A DNA stretch of 51,427 bases from Parafrankia irregularis (lineage in GTDB: Bacteria > Actinomycetota > Actinomycetes > Frankiales > Frankiaceae), in contig NZ_FAOZ01000046.1 in NCBI RefSeq assembly GCF_001536285.1, forward strand, positions 1-51,427, in the 5' to 3' direction. Position numbers and translations under genes: made by a program. Below, in pieces: positions 13,174-33,381 of the stretch (within the stretch, counting starts at the first letter, position 1; every line of letters starts with the position of its first letter). Below the pieces are notes generated by a model. That model saw nothing but the letters and a program-made list of their open reading frames with translations. It was not told the origin of the DNA and made no database searches.

Positions 13174-15192
13174 CTACTCGTCCGGGGCGGTGGCGACCTT
13201 CGCCGCGAGTGCGGCCATGACCGACGGGTCGCGCAGGGTCGTGACATCGCCGAGCTCACGGCCTTCGGCGACGTCCCGGAGCAGCCGCCTCATGATCTTC
13301 CCGGAGCGGGTCTTGGGCAGGTCCTCCGCCCAGATCACCCGCCGCGGACGGGCGAGCTTGCCGATCCGGTGGGCCACGTGGTCACGAAGCTCCGCGATCA
13401 TGTCGTCGTCGCCGACCTGGTCACCGCGCAACGTCACGAAGGCCACGATGGCCTGGCCGGTGTCGGCGTCGGCCTGGGCCACGACCGCGGCCTCGGCGAC
13501 CGCCTCGTGCGAGACGAGCGCCGACTCGACCTCGGCGGTGGACAGCCGATGACCCGACACGTTGATCACGTCGTCGATCCGGCCGATGATCCAGAAGTAC
13601 CCGTCGGCGTCGAGGCGCGCCGCGTCCCCGACCAGGTAGGTCCGCGGGCCGAAGCGGGAGAAGTACGTCTGGACGAACCGCTCGTCGTCGCGGTAGAGGG
13701 TGCGCAGCATCGACGGCCACGGACTGGTGATCACCAGGACGCCGGTGCCCTCGGCCAGCGGCTCACCGTCCTCGGTCAGCAGCGCCGGGGTGATGCCGGG
13801 CAGCGGCCTGGTCGCCGACCCTGGCTTGGTCGAGGTGATCCCCGGAATCGGCGAGATCATGATCGAGCCGGTCTCGGTCTGCCACCAGGTGTCCACGATC
13901 GGGCAGCGCCCGCCGCCGATCACCTCGTGGTACCACAGCCACGCCTTCGGGTTGATCGGCTCACCGACCGAGCCGAGCACCCGCAGCGAGGACAGGTCGT
14001 GGCGGGCCGGGTACTCGGCGCCCCACTTGATGCACGCCCGGATCGCCGTCGGCGCGGTGTAGAAGATGGTGACCTTGTATTCGGCGATCAGTTGCCACCA
14101 GATGTCGAAGTCCGGATAGTCCGGCGCCCCCTCGTACATCACGCTCGTCACGCCGTTCGACAGCGGTCCGTACACGATGTAGGAATGCCCGGTGATCCAG
14201 CCGACGTCGGCCGAGCACCAGTAGACGTCCGTCTCCGGGTCGAGGTCGAACACCGCGCGGTGGGTGTAGGTCGCGCCGAGCAGATAGCCGCCGGTCGTGT
14301 GCAGAATGCCCTTCGGCTTCGCCGTGGAGCCGGAGCTGTAGAGGATGAACAGCGGGTGCTCGGCGCCGAGCGGCGCCGGCGGGCACACCGGGTCCGCCGC
14401 GGCGAGCAGCTCGTCGTACCAGACGTCCCGCCCGGCGCGCATCGCCGTCTCGACCCCGCCGACCGGGCCGGTGGAGCGCACGACCACGACGTGCTCCAGC
14501 TTCGGCAGGTCCGCCATCTCCTCGTCCACGCCGGCCTTCACCGCCGCCGTGCGGCCCTTGCGGCGCGCCCCGTCGACGGTGATCAGCACCTTCGCGTCGG
14601 AGACCTCCATGCGCTCCCGCACCGCCGACGGCGCGAACCCGCCGAAGACCACGTTGTGGACCGCGCCGATCCGGGCGCAGGCCAGCATCGCGACCGCGAC
14701 CTCGGGGATCATCGGCAGGTAGATGCCGACCACGTCACCGGCGGCGACGCCCAGCGAAAGCAGGCCGTTGGCCAGCTTCTGCGTGTCGGCGAGCAGCTCG
14801 GCGTACGTGACGTCCCGGCGCTCGCCCTCCTCCCCGCGCCAGTGGTAGGCGACCCGCTCCCCCAGCCCGGCCGCGACATGGCGGTCCAGGCAGTTCGCCG
14901 ACACGTTGAGCTCGCCGTCGTCGAACCAGCGGTAGAACGGCGGGTTCGTGTCGTCGAGCACCCGGGTGAACGGCTTGTCCCAGCTCAGCAGCTCCCGGGC
15001 CTTCGCCGCCCAGAACCCGACCGGATCCGCGGCCGCGTCCCGCGCATCGGCCTGCTCGGGCTGGCGCGGCGTGAAACCGGCCGGCGGGTCGAAGCTCTCG
15101 ACCGCCAGCAGCCGCGCAAGCTCGGCCTCCAGCTCACCGCCGGCGGAGCCGGCACCGGCCCGGTTGGCATCGCCCGTGTCTGTCGCGGCCAT
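13174..15192 (-). CDS. acs: Acetyl-CoA synthetase (AMP-forming)
   Basis: The 672-residue protein starts at ATG 15192, seven bases after GGGAGGA; a longer upstream frame is rejected. The adenylate-forming motifs are complete: YSSGSTAKPKG from residue 285, WWQTETGSIM, YLVGDAARLDADGYFWIIGRIDD and INVSGHRLSTAEVE. Lys 632 in KTRSGKIMRRLLR sits about 40 residues from the end, as does the acetylation-controlled catalytic lysine of characterised Acs, so regulation by reversible acetylation is plausible. It activates acetate to acetyl-CoA and would feed the thiolase/MeaB/Ccr route at the right end of the window. A small CCGTG-TTTC-CACGG hairpin lies at 15228-15241 in the leader. Confidence 0.97.
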   Translation of the reverse strand: MAATDTGDANRAGAGSAGGELEAELARLLAVESFDPPAGFTPRQPEQADARDAAADPVGFWAAKARELLSWDKPFTRVLDDTNPPFYRWFDDGELNVSANCLDRHVAAGLGERVAYHWRGEEGERRDVTYAELLADTQKLANGLLSLGVAAGDVVGIYLPMIPEVAVAMLACARIGAVHNVVFGGFAPSAVRERMEVSDAKVLITVDGARRKGRTAAVKAGVDEEMADLPKLEHVVVVRSTGPVGGVETAMRAGRDVWYDELLAAADPVCPPAPLGAEHPLFILYSSGSTAKPKGILHTTGGYLLGATYTHRAVFDLDPETDVYWCSADVGWITGHSYIVYGPLSNGVTSVMYEGAPDYPDFDIWWQLIAEYKVTIFYTAPTAIRACIKWGAEYPARHDLSSLRVLGSVGEPINPKAWLWYHEVIGGGRCPIVDTWWQTETGSIMISPIPGITSTKPGSATRPLPGITPALLTEDGEPLAEGTGVLVITSPWPSMLRTLYRDDERFVQTYFSRFGPRTYLVGDAARLDADGYFWIIGRIDDVINVSGHRLSTAEVESALVSHEAVAEAAVVAQADADTGQAIVAFVTLRGDQVGDDDMIAELRDHVAHRIGKLARPRRVIWAEDLPKTRSGKIMRRLLRDVAEGRELGDVTTLRDPSVMAALAAKVATAPDE

Positions 15193-15395
15193 GGATTTCC
15201 TCCCACAGGCGTCTGCGTGGTCAACCCCCGTGTTTCCACGGTGTATCACGACGTCCCCGGTACGTCCCAGGCCCGCACGGCCTTCGAGCGGCGAGCGGTG
15301 CACCGCGGGCGGCGGACGGTCCGGCGACCGAAGAACCGTCCGGTGCCGGACGGACGCCACCGGACAGACGCCACCGGACAGACGACGGGCGACGG

Positions 15396-15423
15396 GCGGT
15401 CAGGCGGTCAGGCGGTCAGGCGG
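15396..15423. repeat. Short tandem repeat, 8-bp unit GCGGTCAG
   Basis: Three perfect copies (15396-15403, 15404-15411, 15412-15419) and a partial fourth lie across the stop codon of the HAD gene (TCA at 15416-15418 on the plus strand). A 14-base repeat CCACCGGACAGACG occurs twice just before, at 15357-15384. Such repeats could shift the stop position through slippage. Confidence 0.7.
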
Positions 15424-16279
15424 TGGACGGCTGTCCGGCACGCACCCAGGAGTGCAGCAGGCCGAGGAGTTCCTCGGAGGCGAGCAGCCCGGTCCCGCTC
15501 GTCACCGTCAGGTTCGGCGCCGCCCAGCCCAGCTCGTGCAGCTCACCGTGCGCCGGGCGCACCGCCCGGTCGGCGGCGGACAGCATCGGCATGTCGAGCA
15601 CGGAGTCACCGGCGGCGAACACCCGGGACGCACCGGCGCGGCGAGCGACCTCCGCCACCGCCGCCTGTTTGGTGAGCGGTCCCGGAACCAGGTAGACCTT
15701 GCGCCCCTGGGACGACAGCGACCACCCGGCGGCGGCCACCTCGGCGGCGACCTCGGACAGGTCCGGAATCATCTCCCGGCTGTGCGCGACCAGGTAGACG
15801 AACAGGTCGTCGGCCACCCGGACCAGCCGGGCCCAGTCCTGCGTCCCGAGCCGTTCGGCCAGTTCGAGCACCTGGGCCAGCGGGGCGCACCCGTCGGCGA
15901 GGCGCCCGGCGATCTCGTCGGCCCACACCGGATCGGGAACACCGTCGACGAGCAGGTGCCCGCCGTTGGCCGCGACCGCGTACCGGGGCCGCAGCCCCAG
16001 GTCGACCCGCTGGTACTGGGCGAGGGTGCGGGTGGTGACCGGGGTGAAGACCGCCGTCCGGTGCAGGTCGGCCAGCAGCCGCAGGCTCACGTCGCTGGAG
16101 AACGAGTAAGCGGCGCCGTCGATCTGCTCGACTCCGGTGACCTCGGGTTCCGCGGCGCCGGGCGCCAGCCCGAAGTGCCTGCGGGAGAAGATCAGCGTCA
16201 GGTCGAGGTCGCAGGCGAGCAGGGCGGTGCCGGCGCCGGCGCCCGTGCCGGCCCCGGCAGCGGTGCTGACGGTCGTCAT
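15416..16279 (-). CDS. HAD superfamily hydrolase of the Ter-associated module
   Basis: The 287-residue protein has the HAD phosphatase motif I DLDLT (Asp 24, Asp 26) and motif IV-like AAGDSVLDMPML near residue 235, with the cap region between. ATG 16279 overlaps the stop of the upstream StiP/PELOTA gene by ATGA, which is why it is preferred over an ATG 15 bases earlier. In comparative genomics of Ter systems a HAD phosphatase accompanies a PRTase, a PELOTA protein and a TIM-barrel lyase in a proposed nucleoside-like metabolite pathway; here it is the last gene of that run. The C-terminus ends in a short repeat region. Confidence 0.85.
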   Translation of the reverse strand: MTTVSTAAGAGTGAGAGTALLACDLDLTLIFSRRHFGLAPGAAEPEVTGVEQIDGAAYSFSSDVSLRLLADLHRTAVFTPVTTRTLAQYQRVDLGLRPRYAVAANGGHLLVDGVPDPVWADEIAGRLADGCAPLAQVLELAERLGTQDWARLVRVADDLFVYLVAHSREMIPDLSEVAAEVAAAGWSLSSQGRKVYLVPGPLTKQAAVAEVARRAGASRVFAAGDSVLDMPMLSAADRAVRPAHGELHELGWAAPNLTVTSGTGLLASEELLGLLHSWVRAGQPSTA

Positions 16280-17454
16280 GCCACCGGCCGCCAACGCGCC
16301 GCCGGCGTGTGGAACACCGGCCCGTCACCGGACTCGGTGCGGACCGGCCGGACCAGGCCGACGCAGGAGAACGGCAGATCCGCCATCTCCTCCACCGGAA
16401 CTCCGCGCGCCTGCGCGAGCGCGAGCACGTGGGCGAGCTCGTCGAGCCGGTCGGGCGCGACCAGGATGCGCCACGGCACCCGGCGCAGCAGCACCCGGGT
16501 GGCCTCCCCGACACCGGGCTTCACCATGATCACATCCGGGATGTCGAACTGGTCCGCGATGCGCTCGACCGCGGCCCAGCCGTCCCAGGTCGGTGTGCGG
16601 TCGGCGGACCACAGCCGCGGCCACTCACGGTCGACCTCGTCCGCGACGTCGTCGAACCAGCCGACGATCGTGTCGACGAAGTGCTGCGACAGGTCGTGCT
16701 CGGCCAGCTCCCGGTAGAACTTCGCGCCGTGGAAGTCGTCCGGGCCGATGTGCTCGGCGTTCAGGACAGTGCGGCTGACCAGGCCGCTGACGGTCGAGTT
16801 CAGGCAGGCGCTGGGGATCAGGAAGTCGTCGCGGGTGCCGAACAGCGGCACGCACCGGGCCGGGTCCGCGAGCACGGCGAGGGTTTCGTCGAGGCGCAGG
16901 TCGGGCCCGAGCCCGCGCACCGCGTCGGTCAGCACCCTCGTCATCACGCCCTTGCCGGTCCAGCCGTCGACGAACTGGACCGCCTCGGGGTCGTGCCGGT
17001 CGGTGATGTGGCGCACCGCGTTCAGGTCGAGGCCCCGGTCCTTGATGACCGAGATCGCGTAGTGCGGGACGTCGAGGCCGTGCCGGAACAGGTACCAGCG
17101 CCGCATCAGGATGCCGATCGGCGTGCCCGCCCGGGCGATCGACGCGAGCACCGGAGCCGGCTTGGTGTGCCGGACGAGCTCGGCCACGATCCCGGTGGCC
17201 AGCGCCACCCGCCGCGCCGAACGTTCCAGCGCCTGCCGGTAGATGTCCAGGTACGCGGCATCGGGCTGGTATTCGATCGGCAGGTCCTCGGAGTAGTGCC
17301 GGCCGGACTGGAAGCCCTCCTCCCGGTCCTCCGTCGGCCGTTCGAGGTTCGCGTCGCTCAGGTCGGTGAGCAGGAAGGTGACGTCCTCGGGCAGGTAGGA
17401 GCCGGAACCGATCAGCGGCCGGCCGCCGGGCCCGAGGGGCTGGGAGAAGCTCAT
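16276..17454 (-). CDS. StiP/PRTase_1 family protein with C-terminal PELOTA RNA-binding-like domain
   Basis: The 392-residue protein begins MSFSQPLGPGG at ATG 17454, overlapping the upstream stop by ATGA and preceded by GGAAGG. The N-terminal ~270 residues carry family motifs: SGSYLPEDVTFLL, FQSGRHYSEDLP, YLDIYRQAL, and VQFVDGWTGKG, a loop resembling a PRPP-binding site. The family has been named both cysteine protease StiP and phosphoribosyltransferase-like; I favour the PRTase-like reading because of that loop. Residues about 305-380 (VMVKPGVGEATRVLLRRV, ILVAPDRLDELAHVLALAQARGVPVEEM) fit a PELOTA-type domain. It belongs to the four-gene coupled module with PRTase-TRSP upstream and HAD downstream. 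Confidence 0.85.
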   Translation of the reverse strand: MSFSQPLGPGGRPLIGSGSYLPEDVTFLLTDLSDANLERPTEDREEGFQSGRHYSEDLPIEYQPDAAYLDIYRQALERSARRVALATGIVAELVRHTKPAPVLASIARAGTPIGILMRRWYLFRHGLDVPHYAISVIKDRGLDLNAVRHITDRHDPEAVQFVDGWTGKGVMTRVLTDAVRGLGPDLRLDETLAVLADPARCVPLFGTRDDFLIPSACLNSTVSGLVSRTVLNAEHIGPDDFHGAKFYRELAEHDLSQHFVDTIVGWFDDVADEVDREWPRLWSADRTPTWDGWAAVERIADQFDIPDVIMVKPGVGEATRVLLRRVPWRILVAPDRLDELAHVLALAQARGVPVEEMADLPFSCVGLVRPVRTESGDGPVFHTPAARWRPVA

Positions 17455-19016
17455 ACGGCACCTTCCGCGGGGTGCCCGCCAGCCGCCGGCGCGGGGCGGG
17501 GAGGCACGTGGCTGGGAATGGTCACGACGGTCACCGGTGCGCAGGCACCGAGCGCCACGACGAGGCCGTCCACGGCGGGGGCGCCGGGCACGGGCCCGCG
17601 GCCGTCCAGTGCCGCGTCGACGACGACCACGATGTCCTCGTAGCGTCCGGGCGCCACGTTGTAGACGTGGCTGACCCGGGATGGGTCGTCCGGCGCGGGG
17701 AAGGTCAGCGCCGATCGGATGGCGTACCCGTCCACGTCGAGGGGGTGCACCGGCGAGCGGGTGGTCGACTGGTAGAAGATCCGGCGTTCGGTGCGCTCCG
17801 CCAGGCACTGCGCGAGGCGCATCGGCACGTACATCAGCTCCTCGGTGCCCAGGACCAGGATGTCCCCGCCCGCGTTGGGGTCACCGCCGCGGGCGGCGCC
17901 GATGCCGGCCAGCACCTCGTCGGCCACGGCGGGGAGCTCCGCGGTGAGCCGCTCCCGGGTGTGCTGGGACCAGCCGTGCCGCGCGCCGTCCGGCAGACCG
18001 GCGGGCCAGGGCACCGTGACCCGGGTGACCGCGCCAGCCGGGCCGGCGGAACCCGCGTCGCCGGCGGCGCCACTGGCGGCATCAGCGCCAGCGGCGATGT
18101 CAGCGCCAGCGGCGGCGCGTGCCGAGCCGTCGGCCGCGGGTCCGGGTGCCGGTTCGGGCGCGGCGGCGGTGCCGACGCTGCCGCGGATGCGGGTGGCCCG
18201 TTCGGTGACGTCCACCGGCACCGCGACCGTCGCAGCGACCAGCGAGACGACGTCGATGCGCACCCCCAGCTCGGCGGCGAGCGCCGCGAAGGCGGCCCGT
18301 GCGGCCGGTGGCCGGGCGTCGACGAGCGCGGCCACCGCGTAGTCCGTCCGGGGGGCGAACGCGTGCAGGATGCGGATGGTGCCGAGCGCGGTACGCCCGG
18401 TGGACAGTTCGTCGTCGACGAGGAGCAGCCGCCCGGGCTGGGCCAGCACCTCCGGGTCCTGCGGCATGAGCCAGTGGTGGGTCGCGTGCGAATGGGACTC
18501 GACGAACTCCAGCAGCGGCGTACTGCCCGGGACCTGCCGGCGCGTCGTGTGCAGGTAGTGGCTGTTCGGCAGTCCGTCGGCGACGGCGTGGCCCAGCGCG
18601 GTGGCGGTCTCGCAGTAACCGATGACGATCGGCACCGGCGCCGCCGCGGGCCCCGGCCCGGCCCACCGGCCCGGCTCGGGCAGCGCCCGGACCAGCGCGG
18701 CCAGGCGGGCGCCGGCGTCGAGCGCGACCTCGGGTGGCACTGGGAGATGCTTGCCGAGCACCCGGCTGACCAGCAGATGGGCGCGCCGGGGGTTACGCCG
18801 CAGCGCGAGTCCCACCAATCGGCGCAGGGCCAGCTCGTCGAGCTCGTCGGCCGGCTCGCCGCCGCGGATCTCCACGCCCAGGCCCAGGGCCTCCCACAGC
18901 CAGTCCTCGTCCGCCAGGTTCGCGGCCAGGTTCGCGGCCGGGGTTTGCGCCGGCGGGTCGGCCAGGTGATCGGCCGGCTGCCCTGCCGCGCCGTTGCGGG
19001 TGCCCTCGCCGGGCAT
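17451..19016 (-). CDS. Phosphoribosyltransferase-TRSP fusion protein of the Ter module
   Basis: The 521-residue protein carries the PRPP-binding signature LLVDDELSTGRTA at residues 198-210 of an N-terminal PRTase domain. A low-complexity Ala/Gly linker occupies about 283-329. The C-terminal domain contains ILVLGTEELMYVPMRLAQ (386-403) and the name-giving TTRSP (418-422), as in the PRTase_2/TRSP pair known from Ter operons. The likely reaction joins or releases a base at phosphoribose; the substrate is unknown. ATG 19016 lies eight bases after the lyase gene; GTG 19019 or TTG 19028, which overlaps that stop, are alternatives. The StiP gene overlaps its stop by four bases. Confidence 0.87.
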   Translation of the reverse strand: MPGEGTRNGAAGQPADHLADPPAQTPAANLAANLADEDWLWEALGLGVEIRGGEPADELDELALRRLVGLALRRNPRRAHLLVSRVLGKHLPVPPEVALDAGARLAALVRALPEPGRWAGPGPAAAPVPIVIGYCETATALGHAVADGLPNSHYLHTTRRQVPGSTPLLEFVESHSHATHHWLMPQDPEVLAQPGRLLLVDDELSTGRTALGTIRILHAFAPRTDYAVAALVDARPPAARAAFAALAAELGVRIDVVSLVAATVAVPVDVTERATRIRGSVGTAAAPEPAPGPAADGSARAAAGADIAAGADAASGAAGDAGSAGPAGAVTRVTVPWPAGLPDGARHGWSQHTRERLTAELPAVADEVLAGIGAARGGDPNAGGDILVLGTEELMYVPMRLAQCLAERTERRIFYQSTTRSPVHPLDVDGYAIRSALTFPAPDDPSRVSHVYNVAPGRYEDIVVVVDAALDGRGPVPGAPAVDGLVVALGACAPVTVVTIPSHVPPRPAPAAGGHPAEGAV

Positions 19017-19024
19017 CACCGCCG

Positions 19025-20218
19025 TCAACGGAGTGCGTCCTGAGTGGCCGCCAAGACGTCGACGAAGGTCAGGTGCTCGCGCAGCACACCGAAGGCCCGC
19101 GCGCGGCGCCGGACGGCCTCGGCCCACAACCGGTGCGGGCGAAGCTCGTTCATCTTGTTCTCATAGCTGCTGGCCCGAACCCCGCCCGCGTCGCCGGCAA
19201 GAATCACCTCCGCGTCCTCGTACTCCTCCTGGGTGACCACGTGGAGCGCCTGTACCGCCGGCACATGGCTCGGATGGATCACCGTCTTGCCGATCAGGCC
19301 GTTTGCCTTGTCGAGAACGACCTCGCGAATGAGGCGGTCCAGGTCGGCCGAGACGAGCTCGGACCGGATACGCGCTCCGCGCTCGCTGCCCTCGATCAGG
19401 TCCGCTTCCTCGAACGGCGTGACTCTCAGTGCACTGACGAACAAACGCTCCGGCTGCGCGAAGTACTCCCAGACCGGCCCGGTGACCACATGGTCGCCGC
19501 CCCGGGCGCAGATATTCACGATGTCCGCGATGCAGTCCCGCACGACGGCGATGTCGTAGATCGTGAGGTCCCGGTCACGACGAAGCCCGAACAGCCCGGA
19601 GAGATCTGTGGCCCCCAACCGCACCGCCAGCACGTTGTCCGCGTGCTTGTCGATCAGGCGCCGCACCCCGCCCAACGCGTCGACCCTGGTTTCGCGGAAA
19701 ATGACCGACGGGCTCTCCAGCACCGGCATCGCCCACAGCGGGCGGCCGAGAACCTCCGAACCGCGCAGCACCTCCTCCAGCGCCGCCTCGCCGTTCTCGA
19801 TGCCGAACTTCGGCAGCACGAAACCCGCGAGAAGTCCGCGGGCCGCCTCGCCCATACGGGCCAGCAGGGTCGACATCTGGGTGACGGTTCGTACCCGGAT
19901 GAACAGCAGCGGCACGCCATCGCCACAGGTCGGCGGATCCTTGCCGAGCTCCGTCAGGGCCGCGATCACGTTGTCCTCGGCGTCGACCACCTCGTGGTCG
20001 GCGATCGCGTCCTCCAGGCAGAGGACCATCGAGGTCACCCCGGCCGCCACCTGCCGCCGGACGTCCCTGGCCAGGCGCGGCCTGGTACCCGGGGCGTAGA
20101 GGGTCGCGCCGAGGGCGGTGGCCACCAGCCGACGGTCGTCGCCCGTGACGATCTCCTGGGGAGCGCGGTGGAACAGCGCCCCGGCCGTATCGCCGTCGAG
20201 GAAGCTGAAATGACGCAA
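19025..20218 (-). CDS. HpcH/CitE-type TIM-barrel C-C bond lyase of the Ter module
   Basis: The 397-residue protein is related to citrate lyase beta/HpcH aldolases: LCLEDAIADHEVVDAEDNV (67-85) carries the metal-binding acidic motif, followed by LLFIRVRTVTQM, LAGFVLPKFG, MPVLESPSVIF, VRLGATDLSGLFGLRR and GKTVIHPSHVPAVQ. No ATG exists near the homologous start; TTG 20218 (encoding MRHFSFLDGD) sits eight bases after AGGAG and is chosen. It heads the coupled run lyase, PRTase-TRSP, StiP/PELOTA, HAD. Family enzymes act on acyl-CoA thioesters or related acids; the Ter-associated subfamily has an unproven substrate. Confidence 0.86.
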   Translation of the reverse strand: MRHFSFLDGDTAGALFHRAPQEIVTGDDRRLVATALGATLYAPGTRPRLARDVRRQVAAGVTSMVLCLEDAIADHEVVDAEDNVIAALTELGKDPPTCGDGVPLLFIRVRTVTQMSTLLARMGEAARGLLAGFVLPKFGIENGEAALEEVLRGSEVLGRPLWAMPVLESPSVIFRETRVDALGGVRRLIDKHADNVLAVRLGATDLSGLFGLRRDRDLTIYDIAVVRDCIADIVNICARGGDHVVTGPVWEYFAQPERLFVSALRVTPFEEADLIEGSERGARIRSELVSADLDRLIREVVLDKANGLIGKTVIHPSHVPAVQALHVVTQEEYEDAEVILAGDAGGVRASSYENKMNELRPHRLWAEAVRRRARAFGVLREHLTFVDVLAATQDALR

Positions 20219-20571: not shown

Positions 20572-20576
20572 TCACA
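20557..20576. repeat. Inverted repeat TGTGATC-N6-GATCACA at the GH26-like stop codon
   Basis: Two perfect 7-base arms (20557-20563, 20570-20576) overlap the last codons and stop of the GH26-like gene. It may form a small hairpin at the 3' end of that transcript. It looks superficially like a CRP site but the half-site spacing is wrong. Confidence 0.5.
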
Positions 20577-22167
20577 CGGAGCCGAACAACTTCCGATAGA
20601 GGGTGCCGGCCTTCGGGTTCTGACCACCGTTCTGAATGGTCGAGCAGACGTTCCCGGGAGCGGCGTCATGGAAGTACGCCTCGTACGCCATCACATCGGC
20701 GTTCGCCTTGAACGTGTCGTACATCTTCTGAATGTAGAAGGGGTTGTCGCCGCCACCGCCGCGGCTGCACGAGGCGACACCCCACTCTCCGACGCCGACC
20801 TTCTTGCCGTGCTCACGGGCGAAGTTGATGAGATAGCACAGACCGTTCGGCGTGTTGCACTGCTTGTTCCACTCCGCCTCGGTCCTCGAGGCCGGGAACC
20901 AGTCGTAGGAGTCGATGCCCACATAGTCGACGTACTCGTCCCCGGGGTAGGCGGCCCACGGAGTCCCGGTCTTGGGCACCGGCGAGGCATGCGCGTTGAA
21001 CGTCCAGTCGATCTTCACTTCCGGATCCGTGGAGCGGATGGCCGTGGAGATCTTGCGGAAGCAGTCACGGAACTCGGTGCCCGCGTTGTCCGCATGCCAG
21101 TACATGAAGGTCCCGTTGAACTCCCACCCGATCCGGACGATGGATGCGGCCCGGCCATTGTTCTTCAGGAAGGTGCCGAACGTCTTCCAGTACTTGTCGT
21201 ATTCACCCCGGGCACACGCCGCGTTGTTGCCCTGCCCCTTCGGGAAGGTCGGCTGGCTGATGATCAGCGTGCCCTGGAAGCCCTTGTACAGGTCCAGCGG
21301 CCAGCGCGGCTCGACCATCGCGGACCAACCCTTGCTCCGGACGGTGAAGACATGCGCCACGTCGTTCGCCCGACCGCGCCAGTTACCGAAGGACAGCACC
21401 TGCGCCAGGATGTGCGACGGGTAGACACCCGACATCCAGGGCAGCCCGGAGAGCTTCCCGGGCGTGGCGGGCGTCGACCCGGTGCGCGCCGACGGCTTCG
21501 GCGCCTCGCCGGTGGACGGCGCCGGCGTCGCGGTCGGCTCGGCGGCCACCGGCTCCGACGTCACGGTGCCCTGCGTCTCGGCCGCCGGTGCGGTCAGCTC
21601 CGCGTCGACGACGTCGAGAGTGCCGCTCACCTCCAGCGCGTCCTGCCTGGCGGTCACCGTCACCCGGCCGGAGAAACCGGCAGGCACCTGGAACCCGAGA
21701 ATGAAGCGGCCGTCCGTACCAGGCTGAGCCGTCGCGGAACCGCCGAGCTCGGCGGTGGCGGCGGTGACGGCGACGTCGCGGCCGGGGCTGAACCCGCGCC
21801 CCCCGACCAGCACGATGTCACCGTCGAAGAGCACGACCGTGAGACTCGGCTGGCCGTCGGTGTCCGTGTTCGCCGTCATGCCGGTCACCGGTACCGGACG
21901 GGCATCCACCGCGCCGGCCGAGCTGGCCGGGCTCGGGGAGGCGCTCGCCGCGGTACCAGCCGCGCCGGCCGGCACCGGGGCGACCAGCCCCAGCGGCAAC
22001 AGCAGGGCGGTCACGACCAGCAGCCCCAGCCGCGCCCCGCGGCCGGACCCGTGCCACCGAGGGCCTGGTCGACGAAACCGTGGGGTGTTCTCGGAATTCC
22101 GGCGGAAGCCGGTTCGGGATGAGCGGTCGACCTGAGGGGTCGGTCGGCCGCCGGATGTCAGGGCCAT
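20572..22167 (-). CDS. Secreted glycoside hydrolase, GH26 (beta-mannanase-like)
   Basis: The 531-residue protein has an Arg-rich N-terminus and a hydrophobic segment at 47-69 ending in AGAAG, so it is probably secreted; the long pre-segment leaves the start uncertain (ATG 22203 is an alternative). Residues 95-190 form a beta-rich accessory domain, followed by a Thr/Pro linker (195-240). The catalytic domain has the GH26 hallmark Glu 349 in RIGWEFNGTF as acid/base and Glu 461 in GVGEWGVAS as nucleophile, plus DYVGIDSYDW. It likely cleaves a beta-mannan or similar polymer outside the cell. Its place between Ter genes is unexpected and a functional link is not established. Confidence 0.85.
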   Translation of the reverse strand: MALTSGGRPTPQVDRSSRTGFRRNSENTPRFRRPGPRWHGSGRGARLGLLVVTALLLPLGLVAPVPAGAAGTAASASPSPASSAGAVDARPVPVTGMTANTDTDGQPSLTVVLFDGDIVLVGGRGFSPGRDVAVTAATAELGGSATAQPGTDGRFILGFQVPAGFSGRVTVTARQDALEVSGTLDVVDAELTAPAAETQGTVTSEPVAAEPTATPAPSTGEAPKPSARTGSTPATPGKLSGLPWMSGVYPSHILAQVLSFGNWRGRANDVAHVFTVRSKGWSAMVEPRWPLDLYKGFQGTLIISQPTFPKGQGNNAACARGEYDKYWKTFGTFLKNNGRAASIVRIGWEFNGTFMYWHADNAGTEFRDCFRKISTAIRSTDPEVKIDWTFNAHASPVPKTGTPWAAYPGDEYVDYVGIDSYDWFPASRTEAEWNKQCNTPNGLCYLINFAREHGKKVGVGEWGVASCSRGGGGDNPFYIQKMYDTFKANADVMAYEAYFHDAAPGNVCSTIQNGGQNPKAGTLYRKLFGSV

Positions 22168-22656
22168 GCTCGCGCGCCGCCTTTCGGTCGTGGCGTGGAT
22201 CATCGGCGGACAAACGGCACCCGGCACACGCGGCAGACCCGATCACGGGTCAGCCCACGGCTCGTCCCCTCCGGGCCACCACCGCCGTGGCGAGATCCCA
22301 GCGCGCCGCATCGGTGCCAGAGCCGACCGAGTCCGACGGATTCTCCGGCTACACCGGCCGGATCACGGATGAATCCGGCCATACTCCGTATGAGTGATTG
22401 GGCTCATCGTAAGGGACTAACCAGAACGGGGGTGGTCCTACCGGAAAATATCTGGCGCGACGAAAGAAAAACTTGAGATCATCCGCAGCCCAATCACCGT
22501 CGGTTTAAGTAACGGATACACAACGGTGTGGATGATGTCCGGGTCGCGGTCCACCCGGTCGACAACGGGAGAAATTCGTCGCGGTTCGACCGAGACGCCG
22601 CCGCCGAACCGCGAATGTGCTTTGATGCGCGACCTACCCGGAGCCGGTAGGCGATG
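22168..22656. other. AT-richer intergenic region upstream of the GH26-like gene
   Basis: This 489-base region is clearly less GC-rich than its surroundings at 22405-22530. It contains a perfect palindrome CATAC-TCC-GTATG (22380-22392) and an 11-base inverted repeat with arms at 22394-22404 and 22487-22497. It probably carries the promoter and operators of the GH26-like gene. I see no gene in it. Confidence 0.5.
22394..22497. promoter_or_regulatory. Long-range inverted repeat GTGATTGGGCT flanking an AT-rich core
   Basis: GTGATTGGGCT (22394-22404) is the exact reverse complement of AGCCCAATCAC (22487-22497), with 82 bases between. It lies about 230-330 bases before the GH26-like start. Paired operators allowing a loop would fit, as would the ends of a small non-autonomous insertion; no target-site duplication is obvious. 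Confidence 0.45.
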
Positions 22657-25600
22657 TCAGCGGATGACGAGCTGGACGTCCTCGGGATGGTCGACCCACA
22701 GCGCCGGCCCGTCCGGCGTCACCACCGGGAGAAGGCGGATACCCCACGGAAGCTGCGCGCCTTCGAGCGTGACCTCCATCGTCCACGAACCCGCGTCCGA
22801 CGCCGCCTGCAGCTCCGCGAGAACCTGCCCCTCGGCCGGCGTCGTGGGCGGTTCCTCCCCGGGGCGGGCGACGAGCACGAGTCGAGGGACCGGCCCGGTG
22901 GACCGCACCTGCACCCGCAGCGTCCGGCGCCGCCAGCCCGCCTTCGCCACGGAGTACGACACCGAGGTCAGCCCATTCAGATCCGGTATGACCACCTGCC
23001 CGGTGGGCTGGCTGGGCGGGGGGGCCGCCGCGGCGGCGGCTGCCACGTCAGGCCGCCATTCCGGCGGCGTCGCACCCGGCCTGGCCTGTTGCGGCCCGGC
23101 GTCACCGCCCGCGCCCGAGATCTCGGTGACCGGCATGTCGACGGTCGCCGGCCCAGGCATACCGACCGTTTCCGGCCCAGGCATGCCAACCGTCGCCGGA
23201 CCAGGCATGCCCGCCGTCGCCGGACCGGGCATACCAACCGTCGCGGGTCCAGGCATGCCCGCCGTCGCCGGACCGGGCATACCGACCGTCGGCGGCCCGG
23301 CCGGCACCCGGTACGCACCCGTGGCCGGCGCGACACCGGCGAGATCCGCGTCCACCCGCGCCGACGCCATCAGGGGCTCGGCGGGGTGCGGTATGCCCGG
23401 AACCCCGCTTGGAGCGGATCTGCGCGGCTCGATCAGCGCTGTCGCCGGTGATGGCACCGGCATCGGTGGTACAGGCGCCACCGGCACTGGCACCGGCGCC
23501 TGCACCGGCATCGGCGATGCAGGCGCCGTCGGGGTCGGGGTCGGCGCCGGCGTGACGTCGATGACCACCGGCTGGGTGCCCGGCGAGACGGCTGGCAGCG
23601 GGGCGCGGCCGATCGGTGGGGAGGCGACCCGGCCGGAGGAATGATCAATCGGCGACAACGGCGACATCGGTGACATCGGTGACATCGGCGGAGCGGGCGC
23701 GGCCGGCGGCCCGACCGGGGGCGCGGCCAGTCGGTGCCGGACCGACCGCCCGATGATGCCGATCTCACCGACGACCGTGACCGGCACGTAGATCAGTTCA
23801 CTCGCCCCGTGGTCACGTTGGACAGCGGCGTCCCGCAGCTGGCCGTGCCGGCTCGCGCCGACCAGCCGCAGCGGCGGAAGCAGTTCGGCCAGCGGTACTT
23901 CCGTGCCCTCCGGTCCCAGCAGCGCCAACGGCCCGGAACCCACACCGGCGATCGTCGGGCCAACGCCCGGCACACCCGACACGCCGATCCCGCCCGACAC
24001 GCCGATCACACCCGCGGCGCCAGCCGCGGCATCGACCGGTACGGCGACCGCGTACACCCGCACCTGCGCACCGGTCCGGGCGGTCCAGCGCAACGCGATC
24101 TGGTCGTGCTCGGCGCCGGCCAGCAGATCGGTCACCGGCCGCGGGCGGGTGACCACCCCGAACTCCGCCTGCGCGCCCGCCGTGCGGGCGGCGTTGCCGT
24201 CGACGTCCACGTACTCGACGAACGCGCGGTAGTGGTAGCCCACGCCCGGCAGCACGTCAGGGTCCAGGAAGCTGCTGCCGGTGACCCGGGCCCGGCGGGG
24301 CGGCGTGGTGACGGTGGACTCCGGGTCGACCATCCGCTCGATCGTCACGGTGTCCGCCGGCCCGCTCGGCCGCCAGGTCAGACGGACGCCGGTCGGGGTC
24401 GCCTCGGCCCGCAGGTCGGCGATGTCACGCACGGCGATGAGCGGCGCGGTGCTCACCGGTCTGGACTGCCGTTCCCCGGACAGCGCCGTCACCTCGTGGC
24501 GCACCGTTCGCCACGCCGGCGCGCCGGAGTCGGCGAGCTCGGTGGCGCCGGTCGTGCCCAACGCCCGCCGGTCGACCTGGCCCGAGCCCGGGTCGACGAC
24601 GATCCGCTCCACCCGGTAGCTGACCGGCCCGGCGGACGCGGACGGCCGCCATCGCAGCAGGACGGCGTCGTCCGCCAGCACGGAGGTCAGGTCGGTCGGC
24701 GGCTGCAGCGGCAGCGCCGCCAGCGCGGCCAGCGCGTCATGGCTGTCCGCCGCGGTGGCCAGGACCGCGACGAGCGCCGCCTCCTGCTGGTCCGACGACA
24801 GGGCCCGCGCGGCCTCGACCCGGCGCCGGATCACCGCCTGCTCCGCGGTCAGCTCCCCGAGCACCTCGGCCGGCAGGCGGCCGTCCGGCCCGGGGACGTC
24901 GGCGGCGCGGGCCACCAGCCAGCGGGCGCGTTCGACCGCCGCGTCCGGGCGCAGGGTGGCACGTTCCTCGGCGAGGGCGCGCCAGCCCGCCTCGGTCGCC
25001 GCGAGCGCGGCCCGCACCAGGGAGTCCAGTTCGTCCGCCGCCTGGGCCGCGCTGTTGCCCGCGGCCGGTCCGGCTGCCGCCAGCGCCGCGCGGACCCGGC
25101 TCAGACCGTCCCGGGCGGCCCGGGGCCGGCCGTCCTCAAGCGCCTGCCGAACGACGGTCAGCGCGTCACCGGCGGCTCTGACCTGGCGCAGGCTGTACCC
25201 GCATCGCCGGCAGGTCACGGCCGCCGCCTCGGTGAGCGAGCCGCAGGCCGGGCAGTCGGTGTACAGCTGTGTGTCGCAGTACCGGCAGGTCGTGGACCCG
25301 CCGACCGGCTCGGGACGCCCGCAGCCGGGGCACAGCACGTAGTCGACGGCGCCGCCGGTGCTCACGGCGGCGCCGAGATCGCGGGCGATGCCGATGATGA
25401 CGCTCTTCACCTGCTCGGTGCCGAGGCCACGGCCCGCGGCCAGCGCCGCCCGGACCAGCCCTTCGTAGGCGACCGCGGTCAGCTCCCCGTCGAGTACGAC
25501 GTGCTCCTCGACGGCCGGCCGCAGCTCGTCCGCGACGTCGGCTGACAGGCCGGCGGTGTAGGGGGCGGGGTCGCTTTCGATCAGCCGGGACCGCACCATC

Positions 25601-26322
25601 GCGAGCAGGTCGGCCGTGAGGGTCTTCTCCCGGTCGTGCGGGCGGCGGGCGTTGCCGGCGGCGACCGACTCCCAGGCGGCCCGGATCCGCTGGGGCCCGG
25701 CGTCCGGCGCCACCCCCAGGAAGTCCCACAGCGAGGCGGTGCCGACCAGGTCACCGCCACGCAGCACCCGAAGGTCCTCGAGGCGTTGCCGGATCTGGCT
25801 GCGGACCTCGGGGGCGAGCGGCGCGGCCCCGCCCTGGTCACCGTCGGGTAGGACCTTCTCCCGGGCCAGCCGGGCGTCGAACTCCGGATCGCTGACGCCG
25901 GCGGCGGTGGCGAGGCGGCGCAGGCCCGCGATCCGGGATGCGGGGATACCACCAAAACGATCACGAAGCGTGACGAGGTAGCCGTCGAGCTTGGCGAGCC
26001 GCTCGGCGTCGCCGCTGCGCCGCGCGTCAAGCACCCGGGCCTGCAGGCGGATCCGGAGGTCACCGTCCAGCAGCGGCGTCTCCCATTCACCACGCCGCCG
26101 GACGAGCTCGGTCGCAAGCGCCGCGTACTTCGCCGAGTTGCGTTCGCGCTGAAGGAAGGCGACCACCCGGGCGAGCTGCGCGGCCACCTCCGAGTCGGTG
26201 TGCTCGCGCCGGGGATCGAGGTCCGCGATCAGGAAGGGGTCGGCGGTGTCGACCGGCGTCCGGGCGCGCAGCGCAGCCAGCACCCGTCGCCGGTAGCCGC
26301 TGCCGTCGAATGCCGCGCTCAC
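22657..26322 (-). CDS. Giant zinc-ribbon protein with FN3-like domains and a J-like segment
   Basis: The 1221-residue protein (GTG 26322) is not a named family I can place. Residues 1-180 are helical. Residues 196-245 resemble a J domain (LWDFLGVAPDAGPQRIRAAW) but the HPD motif reads PHD (228-230). Four CxxC pairs at about 331-376 form a double zinc ribbon (CPGC, CRYC, CPAC, CRRC). Helical repeats follow to about 530, then three FN3-like beta domains (540-830). The C-terminal third is Pro/Met-rich with MSP repeats and seven GMPGPATV-type octapeptides, ending in another beta domain. It lies 140 bases after the Hsp70 gene and may serve as its adaptor or co-chaperone; this is inference. Confidence 0.7.
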   Translation of the reverse strand: MSAAFDGSGYRRRVLAALRARTPVDTADPFLIADLDPRREHTDSEVAAQLARVVAFLQRERNSAKYAALATELVRRRGEWETPLLDGDLRIRLQARVLDARRSGDAERLAKLDGYLVTLRDRFGGIPASRIAGLRRLATAAGVSDPEFDARLAREKVLPDGDQGGAAPLAPEVRSQIRQRLEDLRVLRGGDLVGTASLWDFLGVAPDAGPQRIRAAWESVAAGNARRPHDREKTLTADLLAMVRSRLIESDPAPYTAGLSADVADELRPAVEEHVVLDGELTAVAYEGLVRAALAAGRGLGTEQVKSVIIGIARDLGAAVSTGGAVDYVLCPGCGRPEPVGGSTTCRYCDTQLYTDCPACGSLTEAAAVTCRRCGYSLRQVRAAGDALTVVRQALEDGRPRAARDGLSRVRAALAAAGPAAGNSAAQAADELDSLVRAALAATEAGWRALAEERATLRPDAAVERARWLVARAADVPGPDGRLPAEVLGELTAEQAVIRRRVEAARALSSDQQEAALVAVLATAADSHDALAALAALPLQPPTDLTSVLADDAVLLRWRPSASAGPVSYRVERIVVDPGSGQVDRRALGTTGATELADSGAPAWRTVRHEVTALSGERQSRPVSTAPLIAVRDIADLRAEATPTGVRLTWRPSGPADTVTIERMVDPESTVTTPPRRARVTGSSFLDPDVLPGVGYHYRAFVEYVDVDGNAARTAGAQAEFGVVTRPRPVTDLLAGAEHDQIALRWTARTGAQVRVYAVAVPVDAAAGAAGVIGVSGGIGVSGVPGVGPTIAGVGSGPLALLGPEGTEVPLAELLPPLRLVGASRHGQLRDAAVQRDHGASELIYVPVTVVGEIGIIGRSVRHRLAAPPVGPPAAPAPPMSPMSPMSPLSPIDHSSGRVASPPIGRAPLPAVSPGTQPVVIDVTPAPTPTPTAPASPMPVQAPVPVPVAPVPPMPVPSPATALIEPRRSAPSGVPGIPHPAEPLMASARVDADLAGVAPATGAYRVPAGPPTVGMPGPATAGMPGPATVGMPGPATAGMPGPATVGMPGPETVGMPGPATVDMPVTEISGAGGDAGPQQARPGATPPEWRPDVAAAAAAAPPPSQPTGQVVIPDLNGLTSVSYSVAKAGWRRRTLRVQVRSTGPVPRLVLVARPGEEPPTTPAEGQVLAELQAASDAGSWTMEVTLEGAQLPWGIRLLPVVTPDGPALWVDHPEDVQLVIR
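23132..23299 (-). repeat. In-frame minisatellite, seven 24-bp units
   Basis: Seven consecutive 24-base units encode the octapeptide GMPGPAT(V/A) within the giant zinc-ribbon gene. Units differ by only a few bases, mostly third positions, so copy number probably varies among strains. The tract forms a flexible collagen-like Gly/Pro segment. Confidence 0.85.
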
Positions 26323-26462
26323 CGCTCCACCCTCGTTCCGCCGCCGCCCGCAGGCTCTGGCCTTGCCCCTTCACCGACGAGCGTACGGATCCCGGCCCGG
26401 TCGGCGGTCACGGTGGTGCTCGTCTCCACTGTTCCACCGTCACCTGGCCGCCGCGGGTGCGG

Positions 26463-28148
26463 TCAGTCCCGCTGTTTGAGGAGACTGACCTTCGCCGACT
26501 CCTCCGTCTTCATGCTCTCGCTGCCGACCCCGGCCGTGACCCGGAGCACCAGCGGCTCGGACGCCCCGACATGGGTCGCGGTGACCTTGATGGTCTGGTC
26601 GCGCCCCATCTCGAAGCTGACCTCGACCGGGGTGCCCCGCGGGTGGCCGGCCGGGATGCCGCTGATGGCGCCGGCCACGATCACCTTGTTGTCCTCGATC
26701 CGGGTCGACTCGACCCCGGTGCCCTGCTCGAAGACCCGGATGTCGACCTCGGCCTGGTCGTCGGAGATCGTGTAGAAGGTGCGCTTCACCTCGATCGGCA
26801 GGGCGTCGTTCTGGTGGGCCAGGAACGCGGCGACCGCCGAGCCGCGGTCCTCCGCGAAGATCCCGAAGCCACGGGACGTGACGTCCGTCACCCGGGTGCG
26901 AACCAGATCGACCACCGAGGACGTCGTCAGCCCGGCGGCGGACGCGCTCGCCGCCGCGGCGGCCTCGAGGTCACCGGTCGCGGCGGCGTCGAGGGACTGG
27001 TCGGGGCGCAGCTTCCCGCTGGCCACGAGCTCCTCGCGGACCTCACGCTCCAGCGCCTTCTTCTGCCCGTAGACCGCGGCGCCCTTGGCCACGGCGAGGT
27101 CCGGGTCGGCGAGCCGGCAGGTGAGGCCGAACGCCTCGCCGAGACGGCGGGACACCGCCGGCAGCTTGCTCATCCCTCCGACGAGAAGGCACAGGTCGAT
27201 GGTGTCGACGCCCTTCTCCTTCGCCCGCTGCAGGACGGAGCCGGTGAGGTCGACCGTGCGCTGCAGCAGCGGCGCGGTGATCTCCTCGAGCGTCGCGCGG
27301 GTGAACGTCACGCTGCACCGCTTGCCACCGTGCACCACCAGGACGTCCACGCTCTCCCGGCCGGACAGCGCGAGCTTGGCGTCCTCGGCCGCGGTGAGCA
27401 GCTCCTGCTCGTCGTAGACGTCGTCGAGGGGGTCACCGGCGTCCGGCTGCTCCTGGACGAACTTCTGCGCGAGGTAGCGGACGATCTCGTTGTCCCAGTC
27501 GGCGCCACCCAGCTCGTGGTCACCGTCGGTGGCGACCACCGTGATGTCGTTGCCGTCGAGGCGGATCACCGTCGTGTCGAAGGTGCCACCGCCCAGGTCG
27601 TAGACGAGCACGGTCGAGGCGGACTGGCCGTCCTGGGCGAACCCGTAGGCGAACGCGGCGGCGGTCGGCTCGTTGATGATGTCGACCACGTTGAGGCCGG
27701 CGAGCTCCCCGGCGAGCTTGGTCGCCTTGCGCTCCTCGTCACCGAAGTAGGCCGGGACGGTGATCACCACATCGGTGACCGGCGTTCCGGTCGCCCGCTG
27801 CGCGTCCGCGGCGAGGGCCTTGAGCACCAGGCTCGACACCGAGGCGGCGCTGTACTCGACGTCGTGTGCCACGAACCGCCAGTCCGAGGCGCCCATGTGC
27901 CGCTTGACCAGCCGGGCGACGTCGTCGGGACGGATCCGGGACTGGCGCTTGGCCTGCGTGCCGACGACGAAGGAGCCCGCGGGCCCACCGTCTCCCGCGG
28001 CACCGCTCTCGTCGAAGAGGACCACCGACGGCGTGGTGGGCTGCGACTCGATGTTGCGGATCACATCCGGGCGGCCGTATTCGTCGACCTGGGCGATACA
28101 TGAGTAGGTGGTGCCCAGGTCAATTCCGAACACCTTGGTGCCTGCCAC
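26463..28148 (-). CDS. Hsp70-family chaperone without the C-terminal lid
   Basis: The 561-residue protein starts (GTG 28148) eight bases after GGAAGGGAAG; upstream in-frame methionines lack homology. The ATPase domain is complete: [17 protein letters not shown] (phosphate 1), [25 protein letters not shown] (phosphate 2), [14 protein letters not shown] and [11 protein letters not shown]. The beta substrate-binding domain follows, but the protein ends soon after VTAGVGSES and lacks most of the helical lid of DnaK (about 620-640 residues). It is therefore a specialised Hsp70 rather than the housekeeping DnaK. It follows the GrpE-like gene and precedes the J-like/zinc-ribbon gene in the same direction. 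Confidence 0.9.
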
Positions 28149-28495
28149 CGTCTGATCTTCCCTTCCACTGACGACTGCTGCCACCGACACCCCCGCGACC
28201 GGCGACGCGACACCCCACCGACGGGCCATCCGGGACATCCGGGCCATGCCGCCGGCCTCGCCGCCGACAGTGCTCGAAGTCGGCCTCTGCCTCATGATGA
28301 TGACGGGGTGGCCAACCGCCGCTGAAGGCGGCCGTCCCACCGAGCGCGGCAGGCGGCCTCCGATGCCTCGGCACGATGTGCGCAGTCACCCGGCGCCGGG
28401 CGCGCTCAGGCGCCCGGGGGCGGTGCGCTCAGGCTCCCCGGCCCGCTGCTCAGGCCCCTCGGCGGGGTGCTCCCAGCGTGCTCCGCGCCGTGCGG
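28149..28495. other. Intergenic region between the GrpE-like and Hsp70 genes
   Basis: This 347-base gap contains a perfect hairpin at 28396-28417 and several scattered GCTCAGG motifs (28404-28458). The remainder probably carries the Hsp70 promoter. No gene is supported. Confidence 0.5.
28396..28417 (-). terminator. GC-rich hairpin after the GrpE-like gene
   Basis: CCGGGCGC (28396-28403) pairs perfectly with GCGCCCGG (28410-28417) around a GCTCAG loop, about 80 bases after the GrpE-like stop. No T-run follows, so it may be a weak terminator or a processing site. Confidence 0.5.
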
Positions 28496-31093: not shown

Positions 31094-31316
31094 CGAGTAA
31101 CGCCCTTCCCCGGCGGGTGGTGGCACTGGACGGATCATCCTGCTACAAGGCTCCCGGTCAGGGCTGACGCCGGGCCGGTGTCCCCACCCGGCCGTCGTCC
31201 GTGCTCCTCGGTCACCGCGCCTCGGTCACCGCGTCGCGCCGCTGCGCCTGGTCGATGCGCACAGCCTGCCCGGTTACGACGATCCTCTCAACTCCCCCCG
31301 TGTCCCGACATTCCGG

Positions 31317-32148: not shown

Positions 32149-33381
32149 TCAGCTGGAGGTTCCGACGGGCGAGGCCTTGTCGCCGCCACCGCCCAGGCCA
32201 CCGGAATCGACCGCGCCGTCCGGGTCCTGGCCGTCCGGGCCCGTGCCGCCGGCACCGGACTCGATCTCGGCCGCCTTCCGCTCCTTCGCACGGAAACGGA
32301 TGGACGACAGCAGGGCCAGTCCGATGAACGCGACACCGATCAGGCCGGTGACGACCTCGTGAACCTCGGTCTCGATGGAGACCGCGAGGATCACGGCCAG
32401 CGCGCCGATCGCATAGTGCGCACCGTGCTCGAGGAAGACGTACTCGCTCAGCGTCCCGCGCCGGACCAGATACACCGTGGTGGACCGGATGTACATGGCG
32501 CCGATACCGAGACCGGTCGCGATGATGAAGATGTTCTGCGAAATCGCGAACGCACCGACCACACCGTCGAACGAGAACGAGGCGTCGATCACTTCCAGAT
32601 AGAGGAACAGGAAGAAGGCGGCCCGGCCGGTCGCGAGAACCAGATCCGGTGTGCCGGTCCGGCGCTCCGCCGAGGCGGAGCCCGTCGCCTGCGCCGACGT
32701 GCCCTGGCCCGCGTCCTCCTCCTCGTCCTCGTCGTCGTCCGCGCCGATCCCCCGAGCTTCGAAGAACTCGCCGAGCCCGCGCACGCCGAGGTACGTGGCG
32801 AGGCCGGCGACACCGGCCGTCAGCACCTGCTGAGTGTGATCACCCGAGAAGGCCTCGGCGACGACCAGCAGGGCGACGAGCCCCGTCACGACGGACAGGA
32901 CGTCGAGCTGGCCGGCGCGGCGCAGCGGCTCCTCCAGCCACCGGAGCCACTGGATGTCGCGTTCGGGGTCGAACATGAAGTCCAGGAAGATCATGAACAG
33001 GAAGATCCCGCCGAAGGCCGCGATCGAGGGATGCGCCTCGTGCAGCCGCGCCGCGTATTCGGCCTCGTCGTTGAGCGCGAGATCGAATACGTCCACCGGG
33101 CTCAGGTGTGCGGTCAGGGCCACGATCACGATCGGGAACAGCAGCCGCATCCCGAAGACCGCGATGATGACGCCGAGGCTCAGGAAGAGCCGCTGCCAGA
33201 CCTCGCTCATCCGCCGCAGGATCGTCGCGTTGATCACCGCGTTGTCGAAGGACAGGCTGATCTCCAGGACGGCGAGGATCGCCACGATCGCCGCGGCGTC
33301 CCCGCCGCCGATCACCCCGGCGGCCGCGATCCCGATCGCAGTGATCGCGAACGACCAGCCGAATATCCGAAGTACGTGCAC
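32149..33381 (-). CDS. TerC-superfamily integral membrane protein, DUF475
   Basis: From GTG 33381 the protein has 410 residues and about nine hydrophobic segments; GTG 33411 is an upstream alternative, but homology starts at VLRIFGWSFAIT. The TerC-type metal-binding motif is duplicated: LEISLSFDNAVINA in the first half and LEVIDASFSFDGVVGAF in the second, with the acidic residues that coordinate a divalent cation. A cytoplasmic-type acidic loop (DDDEDEEED) separates the halves and the C-terminal tail is Gly/Asp-rich. It probably exports or senses manganese or a related metal together with the TerD proteins flanking it. Confidence 0.9.
   Translation of the reverse strand: MHVLRIFGWSFAITAIGIAAAGVIGGGDAAAIVAILAVLEISLSFDNAVINATILRRMSEVWQRLFLSLGVIIAVFGMRLLFPIVIVALTAHLSPVDVFDLALNDEAEYAARLHEAHPSIAAFGGIFLFMIFLDFMFDPERDIQWLRWLEEPLRRAGQLDVLSVVTGLVALLVVAEAFSGDHTQQVLTAGVAGLATYLGVRGLGEFFEARGIGADDDEDEEEDAGQGTSAQATGSASAERRTGTPDLVLATGRAAFFLFLYLEVIDASFSFDGVVGAFAISQNIFIIATGLGIGAMYIRSTTVYLVRRGTLSEYVFLEHGAHYAIGALAVILAVSIETEVHEVVTGLIGVAFIGLALLSSIRFRAKERKAAEIESGAGGTGPDGQDPDGAVDSGGLGGGGDKASPVGTSS

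Follow-up and report, generated by a model that had tools for sequence, protein, structure and literature searches.

The DNA analyzed here is a contig of Parafrankia irregularis of 51,427 bases (below, the window, which is the entire contig). Four tightly packed genes on its minus strand, running from position 20,218 down to 15,416, encode a C–C bond lyase, a PRTase_2-TRSP protein (PRTase, phosphoribosyltransferase), a StiP-PELOTA protein and a HAD phosphatase. This gene set belongs to an already known kind, the Ter-associated biosynthetic module: the PRTase_2-TRSP and StiP-PELOTA proteins are present, the lyase and HAD genes stand alongside and TerD and TerC genes lie nearby. The ATPgrasp_Ter ligase was not found, and our survey of Actinomycetes, Bacilli, plasmids and phages indicates that it is optional and hence not a defining component. 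We consider it probable, at roughly two chances in three, that the module is intact in its core and represents an ATP-grasp-free form, in which the ligase is an accessory and the core serves a ribosyl-metabolite pathway dependent on phosphoribosyl pyrophosphate (PRPP).

The lyase, an HpcH/CitE-like TIM barrel protein, is encoded at 19,025–20,218 (minus strand) from a TTG start after AGGAG and matched PF15617 with 398.7 bits. It is followed on the same strand by the genes for the PRTase_2-TRSP protein (17,451–19,016; PF15609, 225.1 bits; PF12500, 127.4 bits), the StiP-PELOTA protein (16,276–17,454; PF11202, 329.2 bits; PF15608, 111.8 bits) and the HAD phosphatase (15,416–16,279), which was recognized by its HAD motifs and by a match to solved "trehalose phosphatase" structures (6cj0/6d3v, E 2.6e-8). 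ATGA stop/start overlaps join the PRTase gene to the StiP gene (17,451–17,454, minus strand) and the StiP gene to the HAD gene (16,276–16,279, minus strand), and a gap of 8 bases separates the lyase and PRTase genes (19,017–19,024). A preliminary description of this DNA had reported four coupled genes with exactly these junctions, and the sequence and the Pfam analysis bear this out. All four reading frames are open and their motifs are intact.

The argument for translational coupling made in that description was strengthened by gene fusions. PRTase and StiP were found fused in one open reading frame in 30 of the 61 loci of the Actinomycetes class sample and in 65 of the 80 loci of a second collection, which comprised 69 loci from Streptomyces, 8 from Frankia or Pseudofrankia and one each from an unclassified actinobacterium, Geodermatophilus and Metabacillus. 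One fused protein of 879 aa (L057:9288-11927, from a genome of family f18) contains all four Pfam domains of the PRTase_2-TRSP and StiP-PELOTA proteins. These fusions show that the coupling of PRTase and StiP is genuine. For the lyase, an alternative in-frame TTG at 19,028 would turn its junction with the PRTase gene into a 4-base overlap as well; such an overlap was counted in 39/61 loci of the class sample but in only 19/80 of the second collection, with the start nearest to the stop chosen in each case, a choice that favors overlaps.

Since the window is the whole contig, the search for an ATP-grasp gene was extended to the whole assembly (9.54 Mb, 82 contigs, 99.68% complete). A Pfam scan of the window proteins from the predicted genes between 10.5 and 46.5 kb revealed no ATP-grasp protein, and the rest of the window was covered by the whole-genome searches; the earlier statement that no such gene lies among the neighbors thus holds. 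With PF15632 (ATPgrasp_Ter), no match over the cut-off was found in the assembly, and the single weak stretch was carbamoyl-phosphate synthase. Note that PF15632 alone is a poor test, as it responded in 13 of 14 control genomes and passed the cut-off in 12, and therefore profile A1 was built from four Ter-type ATP-grasp members, which score 154 bits or more with it. All 61 candidates of the assembly were scored with A1 and three hits were obtained; the best of them, and the one that was identified, is biotin carboxylase with 51 bits. One row of A1 comes from a Streptomyces plasmid without Ter context, so this profile leans toward unlinked relatives. Within the limits of the assembly, no Ter-type ATP-grasp was found in this genome. 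The preliminary description had suggested that the gene might be elsewhere in the genome, and the PF15632 and A1 searches rule this out as far as the assembly goes; a gene just outside the window was likewise rejected, the window being already the whole contig.

The ATP-grasp-free module is the ordinary form in its lineage. Among 296 Actinomycetes genomes, 68 contained a strong PRTase_2 match (163 bits or more), taken here as core-positive. A Ter-type ATP-grasp of at least 154 bits was found in 18 genomes, all of them core-positive, and in 0/228 core-negative genomes at that score (Fisher p 4.5e-13, or 0.003 without the two big families, kinship uncorrected); the class-wide ATP-grasp searches of both Actinomycetes and Bacilli scored no more than about 6 candidates in each genome. 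The 18 were distributed over 13/27 core-positive genomes of family f18 (Streptomyces), 3/27 of the Frankiaceae (f1) and 2/14 others. Neighborhoods of up to 20 kb were fetched for 60 loci besides the window, several of them cut by contig ends; seven of the 68 core-positive genomes, all of family f18, were left out of this reading, and only the positions of hits were compared there. An ATP-grasp gene was linked to the module in one of the 60 neighborhoods (L048), the other 59 being without it, and in none of the 80 loci of the second collection, several of which are likewise truncated at contig ends. In genome G069, TerD and TerC genes lie at a distance of about 1 kb from an ATP-grasp gene, on another contig than the module.

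Some features of the unlinked ATP-grasp genes were also recorded. Examples from family f18 are L073:9995-11128, L171:9409-10566 and L175:9375-10526. L073 is an annotated Streptomyces plasmid in which the ATP-grasp gene stands beside a metallophosphoesterase gene, and two f18 loci resemble it by eye. The Frankiaceae genes (L165:9165-10442, L166:9144-10499 and L167:288-1217) are on contigs other than that of the module, and in the two loci checked by Pfam, L166 and L167, the neighbor is a trehalose-6-phosphate synthase-type gene.

A different distribution was found in Bacilli, with the same core. StiP was present in 45/299 genomes, and a Ter-type ATP-grasp of more than 200 bits was found in 25 genomes, all StiP-positive, so that 20/45 StiP genomes were without a strong one. 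In 24 of these 25 the gene was located 1.2–5.6 kb from StiP. The core order lyase-PRTase-StiP-HAD, the same as in P. irregularis, was found in all 35 Bacilli neighborhoods read, of which 15 had a linked ATP-grasp and 20 had none; these neighborhoods were picked to cover both states, and the split is not a frequency. They comprised 15 of the 24 linked loci, 19 of the 20 genomes without a strong ATP-grasp, the remaining one (G305, Metabacillus) being already represented as L163, and G405, which is counted among the 20 unlinked loci and has its ATP-grasp gene on another contig. The slot of the ligase gene varies: the gene follows either HAD or the TerD/TerC genes, or it precedes the TerD genes. 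The Bacilli operons differ from those of Frankiaceae in that the TerD genes are mostly adjacent and no Hsp70, zinc-ribbon or GH26-like genes were seen between. A quick StiP tree (69 rows, some long branches) requires 5 changes of the linked state, at least 4 of them forced by well-supported branches, and there is an apparent loss inside a clade with the ligase. Because the same core occurs with and without ATP-grasp in both classes, we regard the ligase as an accessory, for which the StiP tree implies four or more gains or losses.

The gammaproteobacterial plasmid Ter module contains homologues of the same PRTase_2, StiP-PELOTA, lyase and HAD proteins beside TerD/TerC. In the two plasmid modules read, its layout differs: the ATP-grasp gene leads the operon, HAD is located between PRTase and StiP, and the lyase comes after StiP. 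Searches of plasmid records revealed 2568 with StiP and 2476 with ATP-grasp. The numbers by genus (StiP/ATP-grasp) were 439/439 for Escherichia, 364/364 for Enterobacter, 350/349 for Salmonella, 130/129 for Pseudomonas and 1052/1031 for Klebsiella; these are record counts from two separate searches, not matched record by record. Rhizobium had 42 StiP plasmid records and was not among the ten genera commonest for ATP-grasp. Thus, the earlier statement that Ter operons often include an ATP-grasp ligase fits gammaproteobacterial plasmids and about half of the StiP-bearing Bacilli, but not Actinomycetes. When all hits were counted, ATP-grasp was present in 26/45 StiP-positive and 6/254 StiP-negative Bacilli (Fisher 8e-20) and in 18/68 core-positive and 3/228 core-negative Actinomycetes (Fisher 3e-10), again with kinship uncorrected. 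The ligase mostly accompanies the core and the core is often without the ligase. The preliminary description had also named independence of the family from ATP-grasp as an observation that would count against its view; the family is largely of this kind, since the core is kept intact without an ATP-grasp.

StiP is called a cysteine protease by Pfam and by the NCBI annotation. Its best-conserved cysteines, Cys201 and Cys217, were found in 147 and 148 of 153 homologues, respectively, but the StiP proteins of Klebsiella, Pseudomonas, Rhizobium and phage ME3 lack both at the aligned positions, so neither is conserved across the family. The N-terminal StiP Pfam domain (16,666–17,403, minus strand) is PRTase-like and contains a PRPP-type loop, DGWTGKG (16,948–16,968, minus strand), each residue of which is kept in 151 to 153 of 153 homologues. 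Modeling with AlphaFold 2 (alignment of 31) led to a model with a mean predicted local distance difference test score (pLDDT) of 80.9 and a predicted template modeling score of 0.86. In the VIA structural comparison, the top row for this model was the CriT part of Bcs3 of Haemophilus influenzae b (Z 11.4, root-mean-square deviation 3.9, 197 aligned residues, 10% identity), followed by PyrR (Z 9–10), and Foldseek gave weak matches to PyrR and HGPRT (best E 5e-4). The C-terminal domain (16,348–16,587, minus strand) was assigned to L7Ae by profile A2 (E 0.003) and to Pelota by fold; the asparagine of L7Ae is replaced in it and the E-x-T-[KR] motif is kept. The two domains thus share their folds with PyrR/HGPRT and L7Ae/Pelota, and the fold and the PRPP loop of a type I phosphoribosyltransferase are both present in the N-terminal one. 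PRTases make up most of the fold matches listed, alongside Pelota and pyridoxal phosphate enzymes; no protease is among them, which is not proof of absence. These characteristics suggest that StiP is a PRTase-fold protein with an L7Ae/Pelota domain and that its cysteine protease label is doubtful. Its loop has a single acid, unlike the paired acids of the usual PRTases (according to PMC10299916), and catalysis is therefore not assured.

The other three proteins also retain their motifs. In the lyase, the KTxIHP motif (residues 311–316), which we take to be CitE-like, has each fixed residue in 145/146 homologues, and this likeness is supported by NCBIfam, where RipC and citE matched weakly and under the cut-off. 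The PRPP-binding loop of the PRTase, LVDDELSTGRT (18,390–18,422, minus strand), was located from the sequence and the homologue alignment; its acids, T206, G207 and T209 are each kept in 148 to 150 of 152 homologues. Searches of the PDB sequences with the lyase and with the PRTase gave nothing useful. The AlphaFold 2 model of the PRTase_2-TRSP protein (pLDDT 78.5) was nearest to APRT/XPRT in its PRTase part (Z 11.5, root-mean-square deviation 3.4, 178 aligned residues). The HAD protein passes no Pfam cut-off (16 bits with the HAD model), and its motifs D24xD26xT, TTRT, K204 and GD225xxxD229 are present in 135 to 138 of 138 homologues.

Taken together with the known systems, these folds and motifs allow us to propose a pathway. 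The PRTase_2 domain, which is APRT-like, may make an N-ribosyl nucleotide-like intermediate; StiP, as another protein of PRTase fold, joined to an L7Ae/Pelota domain and probably not a protease, may transfer or bind phosphoribose; the lyase would make or trim a carbon skeleton; and the HAD would take off the 5-phosphate, the role that CrpP has after the CriT step of Bcs3. According to PMC10299916, CriT uses PRPP to place ribose-5-phosphate on a hydroxyl (O-ribosylation), and CrpP, a HAD domain, then dephosphorylates the product. The StiP and HAD pair resembles CriT and CrpP in combining a PRTase fold with a HAD phosphatase, and this resemblance is the ground on which the same two steps are proposed. 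The two pairs differ in that the identity to CriT is only 10%, no capsule context was noted here, and StiP carries an L7Ae/Pelota domain where CriT has helical bundles. The ribosyl product would then be used by TerD and TerC proteins. In operons with an ATP-grasp, the ligase would probably decorate the same product with an acyl or aminoacyl group, which P. irregularis would lack. Two papers (PMC7824862, PMC8115787) summarize this part of the Ter system as synthesis of nucleoside or nucleotide derivatives with PRTases and HADs.

Several observations weigh against this proposal. All the chemistry of the core is deduced from fold and motif. CriT is absent among the 50 Foldseek matches listed for the StiP model, of which only 2 have E values up to 0.001, the PyrR rows follow CriT closely in the VIA comparison, and the L7Ae match of StiP was not recovered with the A3 alignment. 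Since 13/27 core-positive f18 genomes keep an unlinked ATP-grasp, the ligase may act in trans in that family. Nor is the four-gene core itself universal: phage ME3 and one Rhizobium plasmid carry StiP, PRTase and HAD with no linked lyase and with no ATP-grasp profile match in the whole record. Finally, the ligase is not strictly tied to the core, as weaker ATP-grasp relatives occur in core-negative genomes: it is confined to core-positive genomes only from a score of 154 bits in Actinomycetes and above 200 bits in Bacilli. Among the matches listed, three core-negative Actinomycetes scored 66–72 bits, and seven more Bacilli, six StiP-negative and one StiP-positive, scored 73–157 bits. Eight of these ten relatives were fetched (L227:1303-2391, L228:1303-2388, L229:1292-2377, L230:1311-2429, L231:1283-2326, L232:1306-2295, L233:813-1787 and L234:1346-2572), seven of them from core-negative genomes. 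All eight contained the ATPgrasp_Ter domain at 88–125 bits, and 7/8 had a PylC-like N-terminal domain over the cut-off, which was not seen in the five Ter-type ATP-grasp proteins scanned. These eight proteins may form a sister group to the Ter-type ligase. The finding that the core occurs without the ligase does not rest on an absolute tie, and its odds are unaffected by these weaker relatives.

A different final product, with the substrate specificity of the core shifted rather than the ligase step merely lost, is a less probable explanation that nevertheless has evidence of its own. The identity of StiP to three aligned proteobacterial plasmid members is only 35–38%, and the gene order differs, with the lyase first here and after StiP on the two plasmids read. 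Some alignment columns lean with the ATP-grasp state: one PRTase column is N in 17/18 proteins from loci with the ligase and in 6/84 from loci without it, and a strict lyase pattern was found in 18/18 and 52/81, respectively. The other catalytic motifs, in contrast, are alike in the two states (with and without the ligase, the PRTase loop in 17/18 and 82/84, the StiP loop in 18/18 and 81/82, HAD motif I in 18/18 and 74/77 and HAD motif IV in 18/18 and 77/77). No column fully separates the states, the leaning columns may merely track clades, and Bacilli that are near relatives differ in ATP-grasp while having the same core.

It is also conceivable, though unlikely, that StiP, rather than being a protease, is a PRPP-dependent phosphoribosyltransferase guided by its L7Ae/Pelota domain, which would put ribose-5-phosphate on RNA. 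The HAD would then remove the phosphate, and the core would be a stress pathway of RNA or nucleotide ribosylation, with capping by the ATP-grasp as an option. Yeast Rit1 ribosylates the initiator tRNA, and a StiP acting on RNA would be a bacterial counterpart of it, or else, together with the HAD, the equivalent of CriT/CrpP with nucleic acid as the substrate.

Still less probable is that the ligase step is performed by another enzyme. Candidates are an ATP-grasp that escaped recognition and adenylate-forming enzymes, for instance the AMP-binding protein encoded directly downstream of HAD on the same strand (13,174–15,360). Relatives of this gene form a cluster present in 20/61 loci; in the Frankiaceae block of the layouts, their place is after the module. 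However, the protein is a plain acetate-CoA ligase by score (TIGR02188, 898 bits) and was rejected on this score as a likely substitute for the ATP-grasp; the next gene encodes alpha-glucan phosphorylase, so that both look like housekeeping neighbors, and no AMP-binding gene recurs at that spot in the layouts of the Streptomyces family or of Bacilli. Very improbable is a Ter-type ATP-grasp acting in trans from elsewhere in this genome. The congeners G056 and G132 and another member of Frankiaceae, G181, do have a relative on a different contig from the module, in G132 and G181 beside a trehalose-6-phosphate synthase-type gene, but no Ter genes were found within about 10 kb of it in G056 and G132 (the G181 contig is only 5.3 kb), and the genome of P. 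irregularis itself, as described above, contains none. Decay of the operon after loss of the ligase, for which only the absence of ATP-grasp itself speaks, was rejected because of the open frames and intact motifs, and strong PRTase_2 matches were present in 27 Frankiaceae genomes of the sample, with no Frankiaceae among the unmatched genomes listed.

The Ter genes proper, stress genes of the tellurite type, are located 12–14 kb upstream of the module on the same strand, namely a TerD domain gene (33,751–34,326, minus strand; PF02342, 284.9 bits) and a gene for a DUF475/TerC-type membrane protein (32,149–33,411, minus strand; PF04332, 391.8 bits; PF03741, 69.8 bits). Between them and the module lie genes encoding Hsp70, a GH26-like protein and a 1221-aa protein whose zinc-ribbon match is weak and does not reach the cut-off. 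The genes for the 1221-aa protein and Hsp70 (22,657–28,340) have the same strand and the same place in Frankiaceae, and homologues were also found in L042, a locus from another family. The GH26-like gene (20,572–22,227) is directly upstream of the lyase gene and has homologues in 20/61 loci, all in the Frankiaceae block of the layouts. An 880-aa protein encoded at 28,496–31,138, between TerD/TerC and Hsp70, had no Pfam or NCBIfam match. In addition, a cluster of proteins of about 400 aa represented by L036:15195-16493 recurs in 27/61 actinobacterial Ter loci; the one member scanned matched no Pfam family. PADLOC matched 0/8 proteins and Rfam gave 0 matches within the window. The nearest named relative by StiP identity was Frankia sp. 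EI5c (91%).

Ter operons are widespread among soil bacteria and plasmids, and the four-enzyme core found here narrows the smallest set of proteins to reconstitute in vitro. The results worth keeping are the optional ligase, the fusion of PRTase with StiP and the doubt over StiP as a protease. They suggest that the name cysteine protease for StiP may be replaced by PRPP-dependent transferase, and this proposed function gives a concrete assay.

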